From: Dehalococcoidales bacterium
Lineage (GTDB): Bacteria > Chloroflexota > Dehalococcoidia > Dehalococcoidales > RBG-16-60-22
Length of the DNA: 11,946 bases
Direction of reading: 5' to 3'
Assembly: GCA_030615475.1 (NCBI GenBank)
Contig: JAUWZF010000012.1
Location: 1 to 11,946, forward strand
The notes under the pieces are model-generated. The model searched no databases and was not told where the DNA came from. It was given only the letters and a program-made list of their open reading frames with translations. Numbering within the stretch: the stretch's first letter is position 1; every line of letters starts with the position of its first letter. Shown one piece after another: positions 531 through 11,408 of this stretch. Both the position numbers and the translations under genes were made by a program.

Positions 531-1742
531 GTGATAAACAAGCAGATTTTTGAATTTCCCATCATTTACACCAACCCTATCCCCAGGATAGCCCTGGGAT
601 GGGGAGCTCACGAAACCGTCGCCGACGAATGTAAAAGCGCCGGTATGAAAAAGGCGCTGATTGTGACGTCCGGCCTCAAGGGGACGGGCATCATCGATGA
701 AATTAAGGGTATTTTGAACCACGGTGGCGTGGCCACGGAAATCTACGACAAGATTACTTCCAACCCCAAGGATCACGAGATAATGGCAGGCTACAAATTA
801 TTCAAAGAGTGCCAGTGCGACGGCGTAGTAGCCGTCGGAGGCGGCAGTTCCATCGATACCGGGAAGTGTATCCGCGTCATCGATGCCAACGGCGGCCAGG
901 ACGTTACCAATTTTTCTGTCTTTCTCGACCCCCCCTTTGAGGAAACCTTAAAGAAGATGAAGCCCTGCACCATCCCCCAGATTTCGGTGGTGACCACCTC
1001 CGGCACGGGCGCCGAGGTTACCTCCTGGGCAGCCATCTCCAATACCAAAGCCAGGGCCAAGGTACTGGTCAGCGCCCCGAATATTCCTTCTACCATAGCT
1101 ATTATCGACCCGTTGCTGGTCAGGCTCCAGCCAAGGCATATCGCCGCCTGGACGGGCTTTGACGCTCTGGCACACGCTATCGAGGCTTTCGTCACCAAGG
1201 TGCAGGGCCCCTATGCCTACGGCATACTGCTGCGGGCTAACGAGCTCATCTACAAAAACCTCCGCGAGTTCACCTACAACCGCATGGACAAGGACGCCTG
1301 CGAGAGGATGTGCTGGGCTTCCACCATGGGCGGTATTGGCATCGGCTTCGGTGCCGGCGCCGGTATCGTGCACGGCCTGGGACACCAGATAAGCGCCCTC
1401 ACGGACTGCCACCATGGCCTTATTAACGCCGTTATCATGCTGGCCGGAGAAAGATATAACCAGCCCGCCATCATCGAGAAATTAGCTGCTTTGACCCGCG
1501 CCATGGGCATCGATACCACCGGCATGACCGAGTGGGAAGCCGCCGACTGCTGGTTCGACGAAATAGAACAGCTGCTTGAGGACCTGGAAATTACACCCGG
1601 TCAAGTTAACCAGCAGTTCGGCCTTGAAGAGAAGGACCTGGACCATATCGTCAAAGTATATTCCAATGACTTCTGCAGCCAGGGTAACCCCAAAGAGTTC
1701 AACTACGATGAATGCATCGACCTCCTGAAGAGCGTGCTCTAG
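531..1742 (+). CDS. Iron-containing (class III) alcohol dehydrogenase
   Basis: A 403-residue NAD(P)-dependent iron alcohol dehydrogenase, slightly longer than the usual 380-390. Residues 103-112 give the nucleotide-binding motif GGGSSIDTGK and 155-164 the family motif TTSGTGAEVT. The metal ligands fit the FucO pattern: Asp211 and His215 in GFDALAHAIEAF, then His281 and His295, fourteen residues apart, in the helix starting HGLGH. The enzyme would interconvert a primary alcohol and its aldehyde in the cytoplasm. The start is the GTG after AAGGAGG. Methanol:NDMA oxidoreductases (Mno/Mdo), which keep NAD bound and need mycofactocin for turnover, belong to this superfamily. The position 154 nt upstream of mftA makes such a role plausible, but the sequence alone does not separate it from ordinary NAD-linked members such as a 1,3-propanediol or butanol dehydrogenase. 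A hairpin with a short T run follows, so it probably ends its own transcript. Confidence 0.9.
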   Translation: MINKQIFEFPIIYTNPIPRIALGWGAHETVADECKSAGMKKALIVTSGLKGTGIIDEIKGILNHGGVATEIYDKITSNPKDHEIMAGYKLFKECQCDGVVAVGGGSSIDTGKCIRVIDANGGQDVTNFSVFLDPPFEETLKKMKPCTIPQISVVTTSGTGAEVTSWAAISNTKARAKVLVSAPNIPSTIAIIDPLLVRLQPRHIAAWTGFDALAHAIEAFVTKVQGPYAYGILLRANELIYKNLREFTYNRMDKDACERMCWASTMGGIGIGFGAGAGIVHGLGHQISALTDCHHGLINAVIMLAGERYNQPAIIEKLAALTRAMGIDTTGMTEWEAADCWFDEIEQLLEDLEITPGQVNQQFGLEEKDLDHIVKVYSNDFCSQGNPKEFNYDECIDLLKSVL

Positions 1743-1896: not shown

Positions 1897-2016
1897 ATGG
1901 ATAAAGAGACGATGGAACCCAAGAAAAGCGAGAGCCAGACCGTCGAAGAACCCCGGGTTATCGAGGAGATTGTCGTCGAAGAACTAAGCATCGACGGTGT
2001 TTGCGGGGTATATTAA
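1897..2016 (+). CDS. mftA: Mycofactocin precursor peptide MftA
   Basis: A 39-residue ribosomally made peptide, acidic and rich in Glu in its leader (about residues 1-30) and ending in IDGVCGVY. The conserved tail identifies it as MftA, the precursor of the redox cofactor mycofactocin; the best-known homologues have Met where this one has Val35. The last two residues, Val38 and Tyr39, are the part kept in the cofactor: in studied systems MftC removes the Tyr carboxyl and joins the Val and Tyr side chains into a lactam. The leader strand (VIEEIVVEELSIDG) is the likely binding site for MftB. AGAAGG at 1880-1885 is the probable ribosome site, eleven bases upstream of ATG 1897, which is somewhat long. 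mftB starts two bases after the stop. The gene is short enough to be missed by routine gene callers. Identification is very secure from the C-terminus together with the mftB and mftC neighbours. Confidence 0.95.
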   Translation: MDKETMEPKKSESQTVEEPRVIEEIVVEELSIDGVCGVY

Positions 2017-2018
2017 GC

Positions 2019-2285
2019 ATGACATGCCGCCTGGCCGACAACGTTCAGGTAAGAAAGGAAAGCTGGGGACTGCTTTTCTACGTGCAGACACGCCACAAGG
2101 TCTGCTTCGTGCGCAGCGGCGACTGGCTTCATCCCGAGCATTTTGACGGCACCTGGACATTCGATAGTATCGTTAATGACATAGCCGAGCGTACCGATAC
2201 CCCCGCCGAAATTATCGAGCGCTCTTTACCCAAGTTGACGGAGCGCCTGATAAGAAACAGGATGATTATTAATGAAATATGCTGA
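2019..2285 (+). CDS. mftB: Mycofactocin peptide chaperone MftB
   Basis: An 88-residue soluble protein of the MftB type, a small PqqD-like RiPP recognition element. Its known role is to bind the MftA leader and deliver the peptide to the radical SAM enzyme MftC. The sequence shows an N-terminal beta-rich half (ESWGLLFYVQTRHKVCFV) and a helical C-terminal half (FDSIVNDIAERTD, then a helix from residue 62), as expected for a winged-helix RRE fold. ATG 2019 is chosen because it lies two bases after the mftA stop with GGGG at 2005-2008 as ribosome site. An in-frame TTG at 2001 would add six residues inside mftA and has no better signal. The 3' end overlaps mftC by 14 bases, suggesting translational coupling of chaperone and enzyme. 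Sequence similarity alone is weak in so short a protein; the call rests heavily on position between mftA and mftC. Confidence 0.88.
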   Translation: MTCRLADNVQVRKESWGLLFYVQTRHKVCFVRSGDWLHPEHFDGTWTFDSIVNDIAERTDTPAEIIERSLPKLTERLIRNRMIINEIC

Positions 2286-3303
2286 CTGGCCCTTATCCGC
2301 ACCGGTAAATCTGACGTGGGAAATAACCCACCGGTGCAACCTGAAATGCGTCCATTGCCTCTCATCCAGCAGTAAAGAATCGCCCGGTGAGCTTGATTTT
2401 GAGGAGTGCCGGGCTATCGTCGACCAGCTGGCGGCGCTTAAGGTATTTGAAATCAATTTCGGCGGCGGCGAGCCGCTGCTGAAAGACTTTTTCCTCCCCC
2501 TGTTGCGCTACATACATACAAGGGGCATTGTCACCTGCATCAGCACCAACGGCACCGTGCTCACGGATGAGGCGATAGCCTGTTTTTCCGACAACCCCCT
2601 CGTGAATGTGCAGGTAAGCCTGGACGGCGCCACCCCGGAGGTCAACGACCGTATCCGCGGCCGGGGCACGTTCCACCGAATTATTCAGGGAATCAAGCGC
2701 CTGGCGGGCAAAAACATACCCCTCTCCATCAATACCGTGGTCACCTCGCTGAACTTCATGCAGTTGAGTCAGCTCAAGGAGCTGGCCGGTTCTTACGGAG
2801 CCAGGCTGCGCGTGTCTCGCTTCCGTCCTTCGGGACGGGCCAGGGACAGCTGGGAAATGTTGAGGCTGAACCCGGAACAGCTGCGTGAGCTCTCCGACTG
2901 GCTCAGCGATGACCCCACCATTCTTACCGGCGACTCCTTCTTTTCCATCTCCCGGGACGGTAGAAGGCATCTCGGACTGGACATGTGCGGGGCCTGCAAG
3001 ATGACCGCCTGCATCGACCCCCGCGGCTTCGTTTATCCCTGCGCCTTCATGCAGGAAAGAGAGTTCTGCGGCGGCAACCTCAGAGAGACTGCTTTTCAGG
3101 ATATCTGGGACAATGCGGCCGCGTTCAACTACTTCCGGCAGCTGGAACCCGAAGCCTGCCGGACGTGCCCCCGCTTCAGTAAGTGCCGGGGAGGCTGCCC
3201 CGCCGTGGCTTACTTCGTCAGCCGTGACCTCAACAGCGCCGACCCGGAATGCCTGATTAACTGGAGTCGGGACATATCACCCGCGCCGCTCGAAGGCAGG
3301 TAA
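2272..3303 (+). CDS. mftC: Mycofactocin radical SAM maturase MftC
   Basis: A 343-residue radical SAM enzyme with a C-terminal SPASM domain. The SAM-binding [4Fe-4S] motif is Cys22-x3-Cys26-x2-Cys29 within THRCNLKCVHC, followed by GGGEP at 64-68 and the TIM-barrel strand VQVSLDG near 113-119. The SPASM region has Cys239, 242, 247 and 257 and then the classic Cys296-x2-Cys299-x5-Cys305-x3-Cys309-x17-Cys327 set, enough for two auxiliary iron-sulfur clusters. MftC is known to act on MftB-bound MftA in two steps: oxidative decarboxylation of the C-terminal Tyr, then a carbon-carbon bond between the Val and Tyr remnants. ATG 2272 lies inside the end of mftB, with a weak AGG at 2259-2261. Everything essential appears intact. 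PqqE-type or other SPASM enzymes look similar, but the adjacent mftA settles the call. Confidence 0.95.
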   Translation: MKYADWPLSAPVNLTWEITHRCNLKCVHCLSSSSKESPGELDFEECRAIVDQLAALKVFEINFGGGEPLLKDFFLPLLRYIHTRGIVTCISTNGTVLTDEAIACFSDNPLVNVQVSLDGATPEVNDRIRGRGTFHRIIQGIKRLAGKNIPLSINTVVTSLNFMQLSQLKELAGSYGARLRVSRFRPSGRARDSWEMLRLNPEQLRELSDWLSDDPTILTGDSFFSISRDGRRHLGLDMCGACKMTACIDPRGFVYPCAFMQEREFCGGNLRETAFQDIWDNAAAFNYFRQLEPEACRTCPRFSKCRGGCPAVAYFVSRDLNSADPECLINWSRDISPAPLEGR

Positions 3304-3330
3304 TACTATCACCTGAAGGGGATAGAGATT

Positions 3331-5286
3331 ATGTACGGGCAATTTAAATATCTGTTTTCACCGCTCCAGATAGGCAAGGTGGTCGTGCCCAACCGCATTT
3401 CATTTTCCGCCCACCTGACCAACCTCGCCGAGCATAACCTGCCCAGCGAAAAACACATGTATTACCTGGCGGAGCGAGCTAAAGGCGGCGCCGGCCTGAT
3501 AATTACCGAGGAGCAGTCCGTGCACCCCACGGACCACTCTTACGAGAAGCTCCTCGATGCTTTCAAACCAGAGGTCATACCGGGTTACCGCCGGATATGC
3601 CGCGCCGTCCATGAGTACGAGACGAAGATATTCGCCCAGTTGAACCACAACGGCGGCCAGGGCGACGGCAGCTATTCCCGGTTGCCCGTTATCGGTCCTT
3701 CCCCGGTGCCTGATTTCATGTTCCGGGAAGTCCCCAAGGAAATGGAGATAGAAGACATCCGGGAAGTCATCGAGTATTTCTGCCGGGCGGCCAGCCATGT
3801 CCGAGAGGGTGGCTTCGACGGCATCGAGCTGCAGATTGGCCACAGCTCCCTGATGAGGCAGTTCCTTTCGCCCCTGACCAACCTGCGCGCCGACGATTAC
3901 GGCGGCAGCCCGGAGAACCGGATGAGGTTTCCCCTGGAGGTTATCGGGGCGGTCAGGAGGACGGTGGGGGCGGACTACACGCCGGGGATACGCCTCTGCG
4001 CCGACGAGATGGTGCAGGGTGGCCTGACCCTCGAAGATACCAGAGAGATGGCCCGCCGTTTCGAAGCCACCAGGAAGATAGATTTTATAGATTTGAGTCT
4101 GGCCACCTTCTACAACCTCTACCTCGTGGGCGCCTCAATGCACTCCCCGCTGGGGTACACGATTCCCCTGTCCGCCGGTATCAAAGAGGTCGTCGAACTG
4201 CCGGTTTTTTGCACGGGACGGATTAACGACCCCGTCATGGCGGAAAGAGTCCTGGCCGACGGTCAGGCCGACATGATTGGCATGGTGCGCGCCCAGATAT
4301 GCGACCCCGAAATGGCCAATAAAGCCAGAGAGGGACGACTGGAAGAAATTCGGTCCTGCGTGGCCGACAACCAGGGCTGCTACGGTCGGGTCGGCCTTAA
4401 TAAGACTATCGGCTGTATCCAGAATCCGAATATCGGCTTTGAAAAAGACCGCGGTGCCGGCTCCATCAAGCCCGCTCCGATTAAGAAAAAGGTGCTGGTT
4501 ATCGGCGGGGGGCCGGCCGGCCTGCGTGCCGCGGTGGTTGCCGCCCAACGTGGCCACACGGTGACTCTCTACGAGAAAGCAGACAAACTTGGAGGCCAGG
4601 TTAATATCGCCGCCCTGGGGGCGGGACGGGAAGAAATCGGAGCGGTAATCCGCAACGAGGAGAACCAGCTCAAGCTCCTGCCGGTGGAAATCGTCCTGAA
4701 TAAAGAGGTCACCGCCGAATTCGTTATGGAACAGAACCCTGACGTGGTGATTGTCGCCACGGGGTCGGTGCCCAAGGAGAGCCCGCTGCCCGGCGCGGAC
4801 GGCCCGCATATCTTCAATGTCTGGCAGGCGCTCCTGAACGAGAAGGATGTCGGTGAGAAAGTCCTCTTCATCGACAATGACGGCCATCACCAGGCTACGG
4901 CTACCGCCGAACTGCTCGCTGAGCGGGGCCGGAAAGTCCATATTGTCACCTCATCGCCGACCATCGGCTCCGAGCTGGGGCCGCCGCAGGACTCGTATCT
5001 GTCCCACCAGCGCCTGGCGCAAAAAGGCGTCACCTTCACGCCCGACTTCGCCGTCGTGGAGATAAAGGGGCTGGAGGTCAACGGCCTCAACTTCTATTCC
5101 AACGAGTGGCAGACCTTCAGCGATTACGATTCCGTAGTATACGCGTTGGGTAACCGCGCGGAAGACGGACTCTATAAAGCCCTGAAGGGCAGAGTCAAAG
5201 AGCTTTACCGCATCGGCGACTGCGTGGCGCCGCGTAAAATAGACATGGCGATACTGGAAGGCGAAAATGTCGGCCGGATGATTTAG
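3331..5286 (+). CDS. FadH/OYE-type flavin oxidoreductase (mycofactocin-associated)
   Basis: A 651-residue protein of the 2,4-dienoyl-CoA reductase/trimethylamine dehydrogenase family. Residues 1-340 form an old-yellow-enzyme FMN barrel (GPSPVPD at 122-128; FLSPLTNLRADDYGGSPENR at 178-197). A linker with iron-sulfur cysteines lies at 343-362, and the C-terminal half is an FAD domain with GGGPAGLRAA at 392-401. The cluster motif should read C-x2-C-x3-C-x11-C; here it is Cys343, Asp346, Cys350, Cys362, so the second ligand is replaced by Asp. The second nucleotide site reads IDNDGHH (514-520) instead of GxGxxG, as in trimethylamine-dehydrogenase-like members that pass electrons to an ETF rather than use NADH. 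OYE-type proteins are recurrent partners of mycofactocin loci. AAGGGG (3316-3321) precedes ATG 3331. An ETF gene follows 22 bases later. Substrate is unknown; a link between mycofactocin or a dehydrogenase product and the ETF is inferred. Confidence 0.88.
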   Translation: MYGQFKYLFSPLQIGKVVVPNRISFSAHLTNLAEHNLPSEKHMYYLAERAKGGAGLIITEEQSVHPTDHSYEKLLDAFKPEVIPGYRRICRAVHEYETKIFAQLNHNGGQGDGSYSRLPVIGPSPVPDFMFREVPKEMEIEDIREVIEYFCRAASHVREGGFDGIELQIGHSSLMRQFLSPLTNLRADDYGGSPENRMRFPLEVIGAVRRTVGADYTPGIRLCADEMVQGGLTLEDTREMARRFEATRKIDFIDLSLATFYNLYLVGASMHSPLGYTIPLSAGIKEVVELPVFCTGRINDPVMAERVLADGQADMIGMVRAQICDPEMANKAREGRLEEIRSCVADNQGCYGRVGLNKTIGCIQNPNIGFEKDRGAGSIKPAPIKKKVLVIGGGPAGLRAAVVAAQRGHTVTLYEKADKLGGQVNIAALGAGREEIGAVIRNEENQLKLLPVEIVLNKEVTAEFVMEQNPDVVIVATGSVPKESPLPGADGPHIFNVWQALLNEKDVGEKVLFIDNDGHHQATATAELLAERGRKVHIVTSSPTIGSELGPPQDSYLSHQRLAQKGVTFTPDFAVVEIKGLEVNGLNFYSNEWQTFSDYDSVVYALGNRAEDGLYKALKGRVKELYRIGDCVAPRKIDMAILEGENVGRMI

Positions 5287-5308
5287 CCGCCGGGAGAAAG
5301 GCATAAAA

Positions 5309-6325
5309 ATGGCCAGGACAAGAAATATCTGGGTGCTGCCGGAGATAAACGGTAACGGCGAAGAAATCAGCAAACTGAGCCTCGGACTTCTTACCGAGGC
5401 CAGGTATGTTGCGGAAAAGGTCGGCGGCACCGTAACGGCGCTGGTGCTCGGCGACCAGACCCAGGACTATTCCGACGTTCTCGGTCGGCACGGAGTCGCC
5501 AAGGCCGATATTTTTCAGGACCCACTTTTACAAAATTTCTCCGCCGAGGCGTACGCGGCAGCCCTGTTGCCGAGAATACAATCAGAGAAACCGTGGCTCT
5601 TTCTTATGGGGCATACGACCATCGGCAGAGAGCTGGCCCCCCGACTGGCAGCGCTCCTGGGGACAGGAGTAATTTCAAAGTGTGCTAAAATCGAGCTTTC
5701 CGAGCCGGAGAGTCCGAAATTCTATCGCCCCGTCTATGGAGACCAGCTATTCCAGGAAGTTATCTTTCAGACGGACAATACGATGTTGGTAACCATGGAC
5801 CCGCAATTTTTAAACGTATCCCCCGCCGCCAGAGCGGGTAAGGTAAGGGCTTTAACTATCGAGCCGAACCTGACAGCTGAGTCGATAAAAACCAGACATT
5901 TAGATTACCTGCCCGCCGATTTCCAGACCGTGGACGTTACCGATGCCGATACTGTAGTCTCCGCAGGTATGGGGGCGGCCACTGACGAGCTGCTGCCCAT
6001 GGTCGAAGAGCTGGCCGGACTCATCGAAGGCGCTATCGGCACCACCCGGCCGGTGGTCGACGGGGGAAAAATAAGCAGGGAGCGCATGATTGGCCAGACC
6101 GGCCGGGTAGTCAGTCCGGAGTTCTACCTGGCGCTGGGTATTTCCGGGGCAACCCACCACGTCGGCGGCATCCAGGATTCAAGAAAGATTGTCGCCGTCA
6201 ACCGTGACCCGCGGGCGCCTATCTTCCAGAGTTCCGACGTGGGCATATCCGCCGACCTTAAAGACGTACTGCCAAAACTGATAGAAAGAATCAAGCGCGC
6301 GAAAAACAATGGCGAAATACTTTGA
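5309..6325 (+). CDS. fixB: Electron transfer flavoprotein alpha subunit (FixB-like)
   Basis: A 338-residue ETF alpha subunit. The N-terminal two thirds form the ETF alpha/beta domain; the C-terminal FAD-binding domain carries the diagnostic signature with GQTG at 262-265, LALGISGATHH from 274 to 284, and then IVAVNRDPRAPIFQ. The protein binds FAD and with the beta subunit (7890-8780) shuttles single electrons between dehydrogenases and a quinone oxidoreductase in the cytoplasm. GGGAGAAAGG at 5292-5301 is the ribosome site. The last 17 bases overlap the FixC-like gene, and the partner subunit is four genes on, separated by fixC and fixX. This interleaving fits a FixABCX-type complex rather than a simple two-gene ETF. 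The usual extra N-terminal ferredoxin of some bifurcating ETF alphas is absent. The alternative name etfA is equally valid; family assignment is certain. Confidence 0.93.
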   Translation: MARTRNIWVLPEINGNGEEISKLSLGLLTEARYVAEKVGGTVTALVLGDQTQDYSDVLGRHGVAKADIFQDPLLQNFSAEAYAAALLPRIQSEKPWLFLMGHTTIGRELAPRLAALLGTGVISKCAKIELSEPESPKFYRPVYGDQLFQEVIFQTDNTMLVTMDPQFLNVSPAARAGKVRALTIEPNLTAESIKTRHLDYLPADFQTVDVTDADTVVSAGMGAATDELLPMVEELAGLIEGAIGTTRPVVDGGKISRERMIGQTGRVVSPEFYLALGISGATHHVGGIQDSRKIVAVNRDPRAPIFQSSDVGISADLKDVLPKLIERIKRAKNNGEIL

Positions 6326-7607
6326 CGTTATCATCGTGGGAGCGGGGCCGGCCGGCAGCCTGGCGGCCCTGAAACTGGCCCGTGCCGGACTGAATGTCTG
6401 CCTGGTGGAGCGAGGCCAATACCCCGGCGCCAAGAACATGTTCGGCGGTCTGCTGCATAATACCCCCGTCCTGAACGAGATGCTGCCCGATTTCTGGGAA
6501 CGGGCTCCGCTGGAACGGCATGTCTATAAAAAGGTGCTGGCCTTCATGACCCCGGAGTCGGCCGTTTCCCTGACCTTTGAGAATGAAAATTTCGAGCAGC
6601 CGCCGTATAACGGCCACACTGTATTCCGTCCGGCTTTCGATAGCTGGCTCGCCGCTGAGGCCGTCAGGGAAGGGGCCTTATTGCTCTGCGACTGCACGGC
6701 GGAAGATATTATTAAAAAAGACGGGAGAGTTGCCGGCGTCACCGTCAAAGGCCGGGAGGGGACGCTGAGGGGCAATATCGTCATCGCCGCCGACGGTGTC
6801 CTGTCCTTCATGGCTGAAAAAGCCGGCCTGCGAAAAGATTTTAAAGCTAAAAATATGGGTGTGGGCATAAAACTTCTTCTGGGACTGCCCGAAGCCACCA
6901 TCAACGAGCGGTTCCACCTCGTCCGGGACGAAGGGGCGGATATCAGCTTCGTGGGGACGACCGGGGGTATGGGGGGCGGCGGCTTCCTCTATACCAACCG
7001 CGAGAGTATATCCGTCGGCATGGTGGTGCACCTCGACTCCCTGAAAGCGTCGGGTAAAGCCCCTTACGAGGTGCTGGACGAGCTGTTGCAGCACCCGCAG
7101 GTCAGGAAACTCGTCAAGGGAGCCGTACCGCTGGAATACTCGGCACACCTCATACCGGAGGGGGGCTTTACAGCCATGCCGCAGGTCTATACCGACGGCA
7201 TGATGGTCGCCGGGGATGCCGCCGGACTGTGCTACACCAACGGCATCAACCTGGAAGGTATCAACCTGTCGATGACTTCCGGCGTGCTGGCCGCCGAGAC
7301 GGCGATTAAAGCCCTGGAAGTCGGCGACTACTCCGCCCGGACGCTTTCGCTATATAAAAAGAAGCTGGATGAAAGCTTTATTATCAAAGATATGAAGACC
7401 TTTAAAAATGCCGCCGGCATGATGCACCTGGAGCGCCTGTCCCGGACCTACCCACAGGTTCTCGCCGGTATCCTTGAAAAGCTGTATCGGGTCGAAGGCA
7501 TGCCCCGGTCGAAACTCCTGCGCCTCGCCCGGAAAGAGGCATTGAAAGAGGTGGGGCTGAAAAACCTGATTGCCGACGGCATCAAGATAGGCAGGGCTTT
7601 GTTATGA
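6309..7607 (+). CDS. fixC: FixC-like ETF:quinone oxidoreductase flavoprotein
   Basis: A 432-residue FAD protein of the FixC/ETF-QO family. GAGPAG at 11-16 with FDVIIV before it forms the dinucleotide-binding fold, Glu35 in LVERG is the expected ribose contact, and VAGDAAG at 300-306 with the following NGINLEGINL stretch is the second FAD motif of this family. The hydrophobic plateau typical of quinone-reducing members would follow from homology but cannot be judged here. FixC takes electrons from ETF and passes them to quinone; in FixABCX it is one of the two electron outlets of a bifurcating complex. It overlaps fixB by 17 bases and its stop overlaps the fixX start (ATGA), so the three are translated together. 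It lacks the fused ferredoxin tail of mitochondrial ETF-QO; that part is encoded separately by the next gene. A geranylgeranyl-reductase-type flavoprotein is a less likely alternative. Confidence 0.9.
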   Translation: MAKYFDVIIVGAGPAGSLAALKLARAGLNVCLVERGQYPGAKNMFGGLLHNTPVLNEMLPDFWERAPLERHVYKKVLAFMTPESAVSLTFENENFEQPPYNGHTVFRPAFDSWLAAEAVREGALLLCDCTAEDIIKKDGRVAGVTVKGREGTLRGNIVIAADGVLSFMAEKAGLRKDFKAKNMGVGIKLLLGLPEATINERFHLVRDEGADISFVGTTGGMGGGGFLYTNRESISVGMVVHLDSLKASGKAPYEVLDELLQHPQVRKLVKGAVPLEYSAHLIPEGGFTAMPQVYTDGMMVAGDAAGLCYTNGINLEGINLSMTSGVLAAETAIKALEVGDYSARTLSLYKKKLDESFIIKDMKTFKNAAGMMHLERLSRTYPQVLAGILEKLYRVEGMPRSKLLRLARKEALKEVGLKNLIADGIKIGRALL

Positions 7608-7879
7608 ACATAGAGAACCTGCAGCAGTTGACGCAGTTCCAGATTGACGAGCAGGCTCACATCATCGTCGATAAAGAAATTTGTAAAACCTGTGACCATC
7701 GTGCCTGCGTCCAGTCCTGCCCGGCCAACTGCTACACATTCGATGAAGAAACAAAACTTTTAAGTGTCGTCTATGAAACATGTCTTGAGTGCGGCACCTG
7801 CTATATCATCTGCGATAAAGGAGCGCTCGACTGGAGCTACCCGCGGGGAGGATACGGCGTTTGCTTCCGGCTGACCTAG
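7604..7879 (+). CDS. fixX: FixX-like ferredoxin
   Basis: A 91-residue iron-sulfur protein. The C-terminal half has Cys60-x2-Cys63-x2-Cys66-x3-Cys70 followed by LDWSYPRGGYGVCFR, the hallmark ending of FixX and of the ferredoxin domain of ETF:quinone oxidoreductase. The first half has Cys27-x2-Cys30-x4-Cys35-x3-Cys39-Pro, compatible with a second [4Fe-4S] cluster. It would dock to FixC and form the iron-sulfur step of electron transfer from ETF to quinone. ATG 7604 overlaps the fixC stop by four bases. The ETF beta gene begins ten bases after its stop. The tail and the fixC neighbour make the assignment secure. Confidence 0.93.
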   Translation: MNIENLQQLTQFQIDEQAHIIVDKEICKTCDHRACVQSCPANCYTFDEETKLLSVVYETCLECGTCYIICDKGALDWSYPRGGYGVCFRLT

Positions 7880-7889
7880 AAGAACGGAC

Positions 7890-8780
7890 ATGAAGATTAT
7901 CGTTTGTATAAAAGAGGTGGTTGACCCGGCGCTGAGCCTGGACTTCGGCCTGAGTAATAGAGTCGTCTTCCGGGAAGGCCTGCCGCTCCGGCTGAATCCC
8001 AACGACGCCGCGGCCCTGGCCATGGCCCTGGGGCTCAAGTCGCCGGACGAAGCGGCTCAGGTCGAAATTACCCTCATCTCCATCGGCCCGGAAAGGGTGG
8101 AGAGCTATCTCAAAAACGGGCTGGCCCTGGGGGCGGACCGGGCCGTACGCATATGGGGTGAAGACTTTACGAACTTATCCTCCCACCAGAAAGCCAGGTT
8201 ACTGACCGGTGCCTTATCGTTTTACGGTGCCGACCTCGTTTTTACGGGAGCCATGAGCCTGGATACCGGCAACGGGCAGGTCGGGCCATTAATAGCCGGC
8301 TGGCTCGGCTTACCCTGTACCGGCGATGTCGTCAGTATCGAACTGGACGAGGAACAAAATAGCATCAATCTCACCAGGGACGCCGGCCGGGGAGAACGGG
8401 AAAAGGTGCAGTGCCCCCTCCCCACCATTATCACCGTCAGGGGAGAGGGCAAGCTGCCCTACGCTACTCTGGACAGGCTCATCGAGAGTAAATCCGGCGA
8501 GGTAATGCTGCTCACCCCCGCCGACCTGGGTATTTCAAATGAGGAACTGCATAATGACCCCACCAGAGTCACCGACCTGGTTTACCCGAGGCCCCGACCG
8601 AGGAAGGTGCCGCCGCTGGACAGCTCCCTGCCGGCATTTCACCGGATACTGCAGCTGCTGGAAGGCGGCATCTCCAAGCGAAAAGGCCTGATGCTTAAAG
8701 GCAGCAGCGAGGAACTGGCCGAACGACTCTTCGAGCTCCTGAAAGAAGAGGGGGTAATCAGACCGGCCACAGGTCCATGA
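7890..8780 (+). CDS. fixA: Electron transfer flavoprotein beta subunit (FixA-like)
   Basis: A 296-residue ETF beta subunit, longer than the usual 250-265. It opens with MKIIVCIKEVVDP and has LRLNPNDAAAL near 33-43 and the nucleotide-loop region DTGNGQVGPLIAGWLGLP at 125-142. The VGP form is the version seen in FixA and many bifurcating or anaerobe ETFs, whereas classical respiratory ETF beta has TGQ there. That hints at, but does not prove, FAD in place of AMP. It pairs with the alpha subunit at 5309-6325. The ribosome site is weak (AGAAG just upstream). Residues 230-296 contain a Pro/Arg-rich linker (PRPRPRKVPP) and a C-terminal helix rich in Glu and Leu that may be the arm wrapping the alpha subunit. 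The stop overlaps the start of mftF (ATGA). The alternative name is etfB. Confidence 0.92.
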   Translation: MKIIVCIKEVVDPALSLDFGLSNRVVFREGLPLRLNPNDAAALAMALGLKSPDEAAQVEITLISIGPERVESYLKNGLALGADRAVRIWGEDFTNLSSHQKARLLTGALSFYGADLVFTGAMSLDTGNGQVGPLIAGWLGLPCTGDVVSIELDEEQNSINLTRDAGRGEREKVQCPLPTIITVRGEGKLPYATLDRLIESKSGEVMLLTPADLGISNEELHNDPTRVTDLVYPRPRPRKVPPLDSSLPAFHRILQLLEGGISKRKGLMLKGSSEELAERLFELLKEEGVIRPATGP

Positions 8781-10225
8781 GAGGTTTCGGCTTTTCACTG
8801 GCGGCTAACACCTTCTTAAGAGAAGACCCTGACGGTTATTTCCTGCTTTCCCGGCTGCCCATAAAAATTCTCCGACTGAACGAATCTCTTTTCCGGCTCC
8901 TCAAGCATGTTCAGGATGGGGGCGAAATAGCCGACTTCGCCAGCCAGAACCCCGGCCTTGATGAGCGGAATTTATTAGGAATCCTGCTGTCTCTCGTGGC
9001 GAAGGGATACCTGAAATTAGACAGAATAGCCGAAATCGAAGACTTCCCCCCGGTCTCCGTTATCATACCGGTCAAAGACCAGCCTGAATACTTAATCGAG
9101 TGCCTGCAATCGCTGGAAAATCTCGATTACCCGAAAGACCGACTGGAAATTATCGTGGTGGATGACGGCTCACAAAAAGAAGTTTCCGGGGTTATTGATT
9201 CTCCTGACGTCAGAATCATCCGCCAGGCCGAGTCGCAGGGCCCGGCGGCCTGCCGTAACATCGGGGCAGAAAATGCCCGCGGTGAAATTCTAGCCTTTAT
9301 TGATGCCGACTGCATAGCTGGTGAGAAATGGCTAAAGGAGATAATCCCCCTGTTTACAGCGACTAAAGTAGGGGCGGTGGGGGGCTATGTGGACGGCTAC
9401 TACAAGGACAGCTTACTGGATAAATATGAACGGGTATCTTCTTCGTTGAACATGGGCAAGCGGCTCCTCCTCGAAGGCAGGACGGAATCGAGCTTTTACG
9501 TGCCCACGGCCAATATGCTGGTGACCCGGGAAGCATTCGTAGCTGCCGGGGGTTTTAAGGTCGGCATGCACGTAGGGGAGGATGTCGATTTTTGCTGGCG
9601 GGTGAGAAATCACGGCTATACGCTCCTCTATGTCCCTTACGGCAGCGTGGCCCACAAGCACCGCAACCGGCTCGGCAGGATGCTGCAACGCCGCAGCGAG
9701 TACGGGACATCGGAGGCCGTTCTCTACCGGACTCACCGGGACAAAAGGAAGACTTTTTCAATTCCCGTCTTTTCCGGCCTGTCCTTCCTGGCACTGACCC
9801 TCGCCATCCTGCTGGTGAACTCCTGGCCGATTGCTGCGATGCTCCTCCTGTTCGGGCTCGACCTGTTGCGCAAATCCGCAACTCTGCTGAAATTCAACAT
9901 GGTGATTCCTTTCCCGCAGGTGGTCTATTCCACCTTCAGGAGCTACCTCTCCTTCTTCTACTTCGCCTTCTTTCACCTGGTGCGGTATTACCTGATTCTG
10001 ATATTCGCGCTCGGCTTCTTATGGCACCCTCTGTGGATTTTCGGCGGCCTGGCGATTATCTGCACATCCATCGTGGACTACTATGTAAAAAAGCCGAAGC
10101 TGCTCTACCCTGTCTTCCTCTTTTTCTACCTTCTGGAACACCTGGCCTATCAGGTCGGCGTTTTCCAGGGGTGCCTGAAGCAGAAATATTTCGGGTCGTA
10201 TATACTATCCTTTAGACATGCTTGA
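8777..10225 (+). CDS. mftF: Mycofactocin glycosyltransferase MftF
   Basis: A 482-residue family 2 glycosyltransferase. Residues 1-85 form a PqqD-like helical segment (ILRLNESLFRLLKHVQDGG), and 92-310 hold the GT-A domain: VSVIIPVKD, VVDDGS at 127-132, the DxD metal site IDADC (DAD 176-178), the acceptor-base motif GEDVDFCWR around 267-275, and QRRSEYG at 304-310. After 330 there are several hydrophobic stretches (roughly 333-349, 351-363, 389-412, 419-434, 443-457), so it is probably anchored on the cytoplasmic membrane. Known MftF adds beta-1,4-linked glucose units to the mycofactocin core. The N-terminal extension and the operon position with mftA-C favour MftF over a generic cell-wall glycosyltransferase. 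It is translationally coupled to fixA upstream (ATGA) and overlaps the radical SAM gene downstream by eight bases. Donor sugar and chain length cannot be read from sequence. Confidence 0.88.
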   Translation: MRGFGFSLAANTFLREDPDGYFLLSRLPIKILRLNESLFRLLKHVQDGGEIADFASQNPGLDERNLLGILLSLVAKGYLKLDRIAEIEDFPPVSVIIPVKDQPEYLIECLQSLENLDYPKDRLEIIVVDDGSQKEVSGVIDSPDVRIIRQAESQGPAACRNIGAENARGEILAFIDADCIAGEKWLKEIIPLFTATKVGAVGGYVDGYYKDSLLDKYERVSSSLNMGKRLLLEGRTESSFYVPTANMLVTREAFVAAGGFKVGMHVGEDVDFCWRVRNHGYTLLYVPYGSVAHKHRNRLGRMLQRRSEYGTSEAVLYRTHRDKRKTFSIPVFSGLSFLALTLAILLVNSWPIAAMLLLFGLDLLRKSATLLKFNMVIPFPQVVYSTFRSYLSFFYFAFFHLVRYYLILIFALGFLWHPLWIFGGLAIICTSIVDYYVKKPKLLYPVFLFFYLLEHLAYQVGVFQGCLKQKYFGSYILSFRHA

Positions 10226-11408
10226 TGCGAGAATGAAGAAAGGCAACCCGGTTAAATTCTACGGGACAGTCGCCGGACTGCTCGGCAAAGCCCTGCGATT
10301 CCGCTATGCCAGACTGAGGGCAGCCCCTCTAAAGCCCGAGGCGGTCAGCCTGGCCGTGACCAATCGTTGCAATTCCCACTGCATCATGTGCAACATGTGG
10401 CGGATAGCCAGGGAAAAAACCGATACCAAGGATTTAGAGCTTTCCGGGGATGAGATAATCGATTTACTATCCAGACCCCTGTTCTCGAAACTGGTTGAGC
10501 TCGACCTGACCGGCGGCGAACCGCACCTCAGGGACGACCTGGTCGAGATAGCGCTGGGTATAGCCAGCCTTAAAAAGAGTTCACTTCTTCATTTGAGAAG
10601 CATCGTCATTACGTCTAATGGCCTTCTGCCCGCAAAAATAATCTCCAACTCTCAAAAAATTCTGGAGGGACTCAGGGACACGAATATCGACCTGGTTACC
10701 GTCGCTTCAATCGATGGCATTGGAGCCACCCATGATAAAGTCAGAGGAACCAAAGGAGCTTTTAAACTGGCCGCCATCACCATGGGCGGACTCCTCGAAC
10801 TCAGGGAGAAATATCCCGGCTATTTCATCGGCGTCAAAACGACGGTCCTGCCGGAGAACATCGATAGCCTTGATGATATCCTTGAGTTCGCCGTGAAAGA
10901 GCATCTTTTTCACATTATCTCGCCGGTCTTCTTCACCGAGACCAGGTTCCGAAATACCGATAGAAGAGAGTCGCTGAGACTGGGGCCCGCCGACTACGAA
11001 AAGCTCTTAAATTTCTACAATCGTAATGAGCTGAAGACTAACTACTTCTATTCGAGGATACGGAGCTTTCTGTCTACCGGCCAGAAATGCTGGTCATGTA
11101 CGGCCGCTTACAACTACATGTTCATCGAGTTCGACGGGACGGCATATCCCTGCGAATTGCTCCCCGAACCAATCGGCAACGTGAAAAAACAGAGTCCGGA
11201 AGACATCTGGAACAGTATTCAGGCGCATTACTGGCGAACACGCATCGAAAAAACGGAGCAATGCCGGAACTGCATCGAGCCGGGCGCCGTCCGGTACAGC
11301 GCCTGCGCCGAGGGTCTAAGCTATCTCAAGTTTCTAAGGAAGCTCGGCAGAAACAACTTCACAGAAACCCTTTACGGCGAGGGTTTTATAAAGTATATCG
11401 ATAAGTAA
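10218..11408 (+). CDS. Second radical SAM/SPASM-domain protein of the mft operon
   Basis: A 396-residue radical SAM protein, distinct from MftC. Cys51-x3-Cys55-x2-Cys58 (TNRCNSHCIMC) binds the SAM cluster; TGGEP lies at 98-102 and VASIDG at 162-167. The C-terminal region has Cys291-x2-Cys294, Cys312 in GTAYPCELL, Cys349-x2-Cys352 and Cys363, fitting a SPASM/Twitch domain with one or two auxiliary clusters. A basic, hydrophobic N-terminus (about 1-45) precedes the barrel. ATG 10218 overlaps mftF by eight bases; ATG 10233, five codons later, is an alternative start, and neither has a clear ribosome site, so translation is probably coupled to mftF. It is the last gene of the operon. The standard MFT pathway has no second radical SAM enzyme, so its substrate is unknown. 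Modification of MftA, of the glycan, or of an alcohol dehydrogenase are all open. Family assignment is firm; function is not. Confidence 0.85.
   Translation: MLDARMKKGNPVKFYGTVAGLLGKALRFRYARLRAAPLKPEAVSLAVTNRCNSHCIMCNMWRIAREKTDTKDLELSGDEIIDLLSRPLFSKLVELDLTGGEPHLRDDLVEIALGIASLKKSSLLHLRSIVITSNGLLPAKIISNSQKILEGLRDTNIDLVTVASIDGIGATHDKVRGTKGAFKLAAITMGGLLELREKYPGYFIGVKTTVLPENIDSLDDILEFAVKEHLFHIISPVFFTETRFRNTDRRESLRLGPADYEKLLNFYNRNELKTNYFYSRIRSFLSTGQKCWSCTAAYNYMFIEFDGTAYPCELLPEPIGNVKKQSPEDIWNSIQAHYWRTRIEKTEQCRNCIEPGAVRYSACAEGLSYLKFLRKLGRNNFTETLYGEGFIKYIDK

Follow-up and report, generated by a model that had tools for sequence, protein, structure and literature searches.

What is the role of a flavoprotein relay placed in the middle of a mycofactocin operon? 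This question is raised by contig JAUWZF010000012.1 of a Dehalococcoidales bacterium (assembly GCA_030615475.1), whose whole length of 11,946 bp, here called the window, belongs to a fragmented metagenome-assembled genome (1.41 Mb; 265 contigs; 77.7% complete). The window shows a tight operon on the forward strand (1897-11408) with the order mftA-mftB-mftC-OYE2-etfA-fixC-fixX-etfB-mftF, followed by a second radical SAM/SPASM gene. The five genes between mftC and mftF encode the flavoprotein OYE2, both subunits of an electron transfer flavoprotein (ETF), and FixC and FixX, which would hand electrons to quinone. An earlier note on this DNA had described mftABC and mftF with this block on one strand and taken the block as a replacement for MftG, a flavoprotein that links mycofactocin to the respiratory chain. 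All the genes that it named are present and its wiring is plausible; the parallel that it drew with MftG is the less well-founded part. We found that the block alternates with a different enzyme, MftD: in two phylum samples, MftD and OYE2 exclude each other reciprocally at the curated cut-offs on which this result rests (471 bits for MftD and 793 for OYE2). The relation of the block to MftD is apparently new, not having been found in the literature searched. The explanation that we favour, at slightly better than even chances, is that OYE2-EtfAB-FixCX is the mycofactocin system's alternative to MftD, with OYE2 oxidising the core and electrons passing through EtfAB and FixCX to menaquinone; its substrates, direction of electron flow and quinone outlet are what we infer.

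MftD is an FMN enzyme. PMC7491314 reports that it deaminates 3-amino-5-[(4-hydroxyphenyl)methyl]-4,4-dimethyl-2-pyrrolidinone (AHDP) to premycofactocin, and that an mftD deletion in Mycolicibacterium smegmatis leaves no mycofactocins and accumulates AHDP; therefore organisms without MftD need a substitute. Among the nine close genomes bearing mft genes, the window's own included, none has MftD (TIGR03966; only short or weak matches) or MftE (one sub-cut-off match, in G015) above the cut-off. In the window's own phylum, Chloroflexota, 20 of 400 sampled genomes, again including its own, contain MftC above cut-off: four have MftD, 14 others have OYE2 above cut-off, and the last two (G095 and G300) show pieces of an OYE gene cut off by the contig end, possibly parts of the second OYE that such loci carry. 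The four MftD genomes form one family, and their MftD is 73-87% identical to that of Thermomicrobium roseum. A second survey, of the phylum of Actinobacteria bin L097, gave 53 of 396 genomes with MftC; MftD was found in 44 and OYE2 in exactly the other nine, no genome having both or neither above cut-off. Pooling the 73 mftC genomes, 48 have MftD and no OYE2, and 25 lack MftD and show OYE2 above cut-off (23 genomes) or as fragments (two). The probability that all 23 OYE2 fall among these 25 by chance would be 5e-17 if genomes were independent, which they are not. With both traits measured separately on a tree of MftC from 70 survey rows, the state changes eight times, at least six of them on supported branches, and MftD and OYE2 are opposite in six of six independent pairs (sign test, p 0.031). 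Furthermore, MftD is under cut-off in all 30 genomes taken from OYE2-family loci, ten of which have no family match at E 1e-3; these genomes stand for 30 of the 80 loci described below, and they include OYEs that score under the TIGR03997 cut-off and at least three genomes already present in the other sets. The exclusion is most naturally read as an interchange of function.

The block does not always lie beside the biosynthetic genes. In the second survey, all five redox genes are within about 10 kb of mftC in five of the nine OYE2 genomes (on both sides of it in G767), and in the other four the block is split, farther off or cut by contig ends; MftD lies within about 10 kb of mftC in 29 of its 44 genomes. 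One family of the window's own phylum has its OYE-ETF-FixCX cluster about 155 kb from mftC, as seen in the three genomes that have both on one contig.

About a quarter of mftC genomes are without MftG, and whether other enzymes replace it was left open (PMC11778925). In agreement with the earlier note, TIGR03970 is unmatched at 1e-60 in the window's own genome (78% complete), the genus-specific families TIGR04542 and NF038210 not being searched here or in the wider set. That set of 80 genomes (the 73 survey genomes and seven of the eight close relatives bearing mft genes, G027 being left out) shows MftG (TIGR03970) above cut-off in 12, all of them with MftD. The view of the earlier note, in which the block is only an outlet that re-oxidises mycofactocinol, fills the role of MftG by delivering the electrons to quinone, and leaves the making of premycofactocin to another, unrecognised enzyme, would agree with the absence of MftG above cut-off from 32 of 32 genomes (25 lacking MftD and seven close mft-bearing ones; best sub-cut-off match 348 bits, in G095) and would offer a replacement for that quarter. 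It would also agree with the midpoint of -255 mV given for premycofactocin in PMC7491314, which is below the -74 mV of menaquinone given in PMC10734219, and with a catabolic flux implied by the alcohol dehydrogenases beside the operon and by aldehyde:ferredoxin oxidoreductase genes, found in 34 of 92 scanned loci. However, OYE2 occurs in none of the 36 genomes that have MftD and lack TIGR03970 MftG, so the module follows the loss of MftD (25 of 25 genomes, two by fragments; 0 of 48 with MftD) and not that of MftG, and a second deaminase would need to have been gained or lost together with the block on at least six occasions. We consider a mere outlet unlikely.

The module is conserved well beyond the window. 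OYE2-type loci with organism names are the best 80 of 139 relatives, and the closest named records come from Dehalococcoidales and other Chloroflexota bins. Hosts are mostly Geobacter relatives, with other Deltaproteobacteria, Goldiibacteriota, Spirochaetes, Chloroflexales and Actinobacteria; 64 of the 80 loci show mftC and none shows MftD. Forty have room on both sides, 37 of these with mftC, and all 37 with mftF too; in 34 of the 37, etfA, fixC, fixX and etfB are all present, a linkage to mftC that, together with the gene order kept in close relatives, goes beyond chance. On plasmid pHTUR01 of the haloarchaeon Haloterrigena turkmenica, the five redox genes lie beside mftABCF and mftE, with no MftD in that stretch. 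The module is widespread and crosses domains, and its presence in Geobacter relatives, Chloroflexota, some Actinobacteriota and a haloarchaeon makes it neither unique nor strictly anaerobic, so that the perhaps anaerobic character proposed earlier is not general. As had been supposed, the OYE and ETF proteins associated with mycofactocin already have families curated at NCBI (TIGR03996, TIGR03997, NF038209 and TIGR04503), whose names give no function. Nor do relatives with contigs of sufficient length lack the module, a doubt raised with the original proposal: the eight close genomes show an iron-containing alcohol dehydrogenase (Fe-ADH) and then mftA-mftB(-mftC), with a zinc alcohol dehydrogenase (Zn-ADH) before the Fe-ADH except in L017, and in the three loci with enough DNA (L014, L015 and L017) the order continues as OYE2-etfA-fixC-fixX-etfB-mftF, the remaining ones being cut by contig ends. 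L017 belongs to another family of the same order and carries three Fe-ADHs.

OYE2 belongs to the superfamily of trimethylamine and histamine dehydrogenases and dienoyl-CoA reductase. Trimethylamine dehydrogenase passes its electrons to an ETF and from there to ETF:quinone oxidoreductase. OYE2 and its kin keep the first GxGxxG motif in 114 of 114 sequences and that of the second Rossmann fold (the NAD(P)H site, in the third domain) in none, and trimethylamine dehydrogenase shows the same loss in the alignment with 1DJN. His172 of trimethylamine dehydrogenase corresponds to H171 of OYE2; all 64 close OYE2s keep it, against only 23 of 50 among the more distant OYEs at these loci. As a separate observation, the window has Asp at residue 346 of OYE2 (4366-4368), which is one of the four Fe-S ligand positions; of the 64 close OYE2s, 25 have this Asp and 39 have Cys.

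The nearest solved relatives of OYE2 include two CoA-ester reductases, in line with a block that runs in reverse, reducing an enoate or similar compound, or that serves an unrelated acyl-CoA dehydrogenase and merely shares the operon. Sets of OYE-etfA-fixC-fixX-etfB without mft genes in the stretch do exist (L100 4167-9571 and L102 1100-8629; the L102 set belongs to an mft-bearing genome, its match place being that of G001), a partial answer to the question, put by the earlier note, whether the module occurs equally without mft genes; the OYEs of both sets are under the TIGR03997 cut-off. Such a use is made quite improbable by several results: all seven OYEs scored from stretches without mftC are under that cut-off (560-749 against 793), the only three of the 40 roomy loci without mftC are among the loci of these seven, the Tyr of both CoA-ester reductases is Ser in 64 of 64 close OYE2s, and the exclusion of MftD would be left unexplained.

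The precursor peptide ends in GVY in 73 of 74 peptides at module-labelled loci and in 50 of 50 at MftD loci (the scan covered 108 module-labelled stretches, a few genomes twice, and its pattern did not fix the last two residues), so the product of MftC should be the same core at both. This identity weighs against the idea that, where MftD is absent, the amine is retained and mycofactocin works in an amino form, which OYE2-ETF-FixCX would cycle or read. That idea would fit the lack of MftD and MftE above cut-off in nine of nine close mft-bearing genomes, and the glycosylated AHDP that, according to PMC7491314, still accumulates in a mutant without MftD. However, besides the GVY core, the partner dehydrogenases are of the same kinds with a close Fe-ADH hot-spot motif, and without deamination there is no keto/hydroxyl couple; we regard an amino-form cofactor as improbable.

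All four subunits of a FixABCX/EtfABCX complex are present, FixC and FixX being of that type, and the FixX cysteines 27, 30, 35, 39, 60, 63, 66 and 70 are conserved in 78-79 of 79 relatives. The second-best solved relative of EtfB is the ETF partner of trimethylamine dehydrogenase (1O94_C). Near the bifurcating FAD of the Thermotoga maritima ETF, PMC10734219 places R140 of the alpha subunit and R38 and P239/V242 of the beta subunit, and the window ETF has counterparts of R140 (in RPVYGD), R38 (REGL) and P239/V242 (DPTRV). These residues would suit an EtfAB that splits the electrons of mycofactocinol or NADH, one going to menaquinone through FixCX and one to ferredoxin. We find this very improbable, and the bifurcation allowed for by the earlier note is not general: of the modules compared, those of Geobacter, Actinobacteriota, Chloroflexales and the haloarchaeon showed none of the beta loops, which are partly kept in Dehalococcoidia only and vary even there (QKGL in L017; PTxV unmatched in L014 and L015). 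According to PMC10734219, which also gives -450 mV for ferredoxin, each of the five ETF groups includes sequences with R140. By our arithmetic ferredoxin and menaquinone average about -262 mV; an ETF splitting electrons at -255 mV would thus break even at best, while premycofactocin can reduce menaquinone directly. Furthermore, fixCX is replaceable: in L076 (12942-15745) and L091 (12985-15494), fixC-fixX between etfA and etfB is swapped for a cytochrome c and a membrane-type CCG/Fer4 oxidoreductase of 633-640 residues, which in L076 includes a NarI-like domain. That the outlet can change while its place is kept suggests that the electrons end in the membrane quinone pool. Among the roomy mft loci, a third, L094, also lacks fixC-fixX, and no outlet was found there.

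In the proposed substitution for MftD, MftC would make the same Val-Tyr-derived core from a precursor ending in GVY, and OYE2 would oxidise its alpha carbon from amine to keto, the premycofactocin step, once per cofactor. OYE2 would probably also re-oxidise mycofactocinol at each turnover. Electrons would pass from the Fe-S cluster of OYE2 to EtfAB, then across FixX with its two [4Fe-4S] clusters to the FAD in FixC, and finally to menaquinone, a relay that would need no oxygen, and the adjoining Fe- and Zn-alcohol dehydrogenases would load the finished cofactor. Observed directly are the genes and their conservation, the exclusion in the two phylum samples, its independence of MftG and the loss of the NAD(P)H glycine motif.

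Several points weigh against this explanation. For a biosynthetic step of low flux, a complete respiratory relay is a large outlay, unless mycofactocinol is recycled too. The exclusion shows interchange with MftD and not which reaction is shared, and MftD might itself recycle mycofactocinol; moreover, this lineage also lacks MftE, which means that the difference is not confined to one step. Six of the 25 genomes lacking MftD have a hydroxy-acid oxidase of the MftD superfamily (250-279 bits against the cut-off of 471), although proteins of up to 316 bits coexist with true MftD in several genomes, and these matches are therefore read as ordinary oxidases. A distant OYE (up to 562 bits, under 793) is present in 19 of the 44 MftD genomes of the second survey, the genomes are often incomplete, and kinship is handled only through the six pairs. 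The best-scoring solved relatives of OYE2 are naphthoyl-CoA and dienoyl-CoA reductase, ahead of the amine dehydrogenases. Finally, OYE2 has L29, Q168 and L265 at positions C30, Y169 and D267 of trimethylamine dehydrogenase, and Tyr174 is likewise not kept; we take Cys30 to be the cysteine that binds FMN covalently, and Tyr169/Tyr174, His172 and Asp267 to be its Tyr-His-Asp set.

The features of the window are collected in the table below. The junctions from mftA to the last gene measure +2, -14, +27, +22, -17, -4, +10, -4 and -8 nt (negative values are overlaps), calculated from open reading frame coordinates with the mftB start taken as the ATG at 2019. MftA, MftC and MftF all exceed their curated NCBIfam cut-offs within this one locus, and MftB is under its own, though of the expected place and size.

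Table. Genes of the window with the matches on which their assignment is based.
Feature	Position	Strand	Basis
Fe-ADH, iron-containing alcohol dehydrogenase	531..1742	+	PF00465, 139.4 bits
mftA, precursor peptide, 39 aa, C-terminus IDGVCGVY	1897..2016	+	TIGR03969, 37.6 (cut-off 25); PF23709 above cut-off
mftB, chaperone	2019..2285	+	TIGR03967, 25.3 bits (under cut-off 33); position; 60-86% identity to the gene of relatives
mftC, radical SAM maturase	2272..3303	+	TIGR03962, 361 bits (cut-off 265)
OYE2, FMN / Fe-S / FAD-or-ADP type flavoprotein	3331..5286	+	TIGR03997, 929.7 (cut-off 793)
etfA (FixB type), ETF alpha	5309..6325	+	PF01012, PF00766; best solved relatives 6FAH_A, 5OL2_A; 7KOE_B fifth
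fixC, ETF:quinone oxidoreductase flavoprotein	6309..7607	+	7KOE_C, E 7.9e-84; ETF-QO 2GMH, E 7e-21; PF21162 ETFQO_UQ-bd above cut-off
fixX, 2x[4Fe-4S] ferredoxin-like	7604..7879	+	7KOE_D, E 2e-20
etfB (FixA type), ETF beta	7890..8780	+	PF01012; best solved relatives 7KOE_A, 1O94_C (ETF of trimethylamine dehydrogenase complex)
mftF, glycosyltransferase	8777..10225	+	TIGR03965, 353.8 (cut-off 280)
Second radical SAM/SPASM protein	10218..11408	+	PF04055, PF13186 above cut-off; no named family

The end of a Zn-ADH gene and the Fe-ADH gene lie upstream of mftA, and another Zn-ADH lies downstream on the opposite strand. The nearest NCBIfam family of the Fe-ADH is TIGR04266, NDMA-dependent methanol dehydrogenase (254.9, under the cut-off of 625), and its motif TSNPKDHEI is a close version of TSNPKDYEVH, the mycofactocin-linked hot spot known for this family (PMC3023750); judged by its sequence and its place next to mftA in relatives, the Fe-ADH is likely a mycofactocin-dependent nicotinoprotein that gives electrons to mycofactocin. 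The aldehyde:ferredoxin oxidoreductase genes mentioned above were found mostly in Geobacter relatives and in none of the Dehalococcoidia, usually 3' of mftF (e.g. L031 17026-18777), which fits a path from alcohol to aldehyde to acid in Geobacter-type loci. Just 5' of mftA (1841-1865), visual inspection showed a hairpin (AGACGGG...CCCGTCT) with a short run of T after it, which is absent from the terminator-scan list.

The second radical SAM gene, which the earlier note does not mention, also adjoins mftF in L015 and L017. None of its 25 listed NCBIfam matches is above cut-off (best TIGR04545, 80.5 against 500); a protein of this kind is found at or near mftF across phyla (L015, L017, L026, L052, L058, L062, L072, L076 and L091) and may modify the cofactor further. 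Two close relatives have one extra gene each, a methyltransferase between mftA and mftB (L013 1268-2023) and a DUF169 gene before mftA (L016 9864-10604). The OYE2 gene of G005 is broken over two frames (L014 11025-12987), and etfB and mftF of G015 share one open frame (L015 1392-3704); in each, a sequencing error or a real change is possible.

Compared with the mycobacterial mftABCDEF-mftG operon, the window shares mftA, mftB, mftC, mftF, the GVY core and adjoining nicotinoprotein-type alcohol dehydrogenases, but mftD, mftE and mftG are not found, OYE2-etfA-fixC-fixX-etfB stands instead, and there is an extra radical SAM gene. The pHTUR01 cluster likewise carries these five redox genes next to mftABCF. 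While OYE2 is a full member of OYE_2 (TIGR03997), both window ETF subunits are under the cut-offs of mft_etfA (NF038209, 151.8 against 240) and mft_etfB (TIGR04503, 76.4 against 200), as are those of L017, L031 and L105, and no mycofactocin-specific FixC or FixX family is among the NCBIfam matches shown. The T. maritima EtfABCX (7KOE) has the same four subunits and FixX cysteines and is the best solved relative of FixC, FixX and EtfB; the module differs from it by its tie to an OYE flavoprotein and a cofactor of the ribosomally synthesized and post-translationally modified peptide class, and by beta bifurcation loops that are not kept across the module. Trimethylamine dehydrogenase resembles OYE2 as an FMN/Fe-S enzyme of the same superfamily without the NAD(P)H glycine motif, with an ETF partner and the His172 counterpart; OYE2 differs in the residues given above and in FixCX taking the place of a one-chain ETF-QO. 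MftG, of an unrelated family, is like the block a flavoprotein link from mycofactocin to the respiratory chain, a link that for the block is proposed, and its absence has no predictive value for the module.

Geobacter relatives and the haloarchaeal mft locus have the relay form, and in the Chloroflexota and Actinobacteriota sampled the relay and MftD exclude each other. There may be two unrelated premycofactocin synthases, MftD being one. The other would be a relay linked to quinone, built of OYE2-EtfAB-FixCX or, in some lineages, of OYE2-EtfAB and a CCG-type membrane oxidoreductase, which would both complete the cofactor and hold it in the oxidised state; this is a tentative idea whose chances we put somewhat below even. 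If it is true, the last biosynthetic redox step and the respiration of the cofactor are one machine. The block is a concrete candidate for the question of what replaces MftG (PMC11778925), and it raises a sharper one, namely how organisms without MftD, many of them of anaerobic groups, make the redox centre. The exclusion rule lets annotators separate two kinds of mycofactocin system simply. If our explanation is true, mycofactocin would join the cofactors that have an oxygen-independent alternative synthase, an enzyme of the OYE superfamily would acquire a new reaction, and in Geobacter-type bacteria and Dehalococcoidia there would be a direct tie between the quinone pool and the oxidation of alcohols through mycofactocin.

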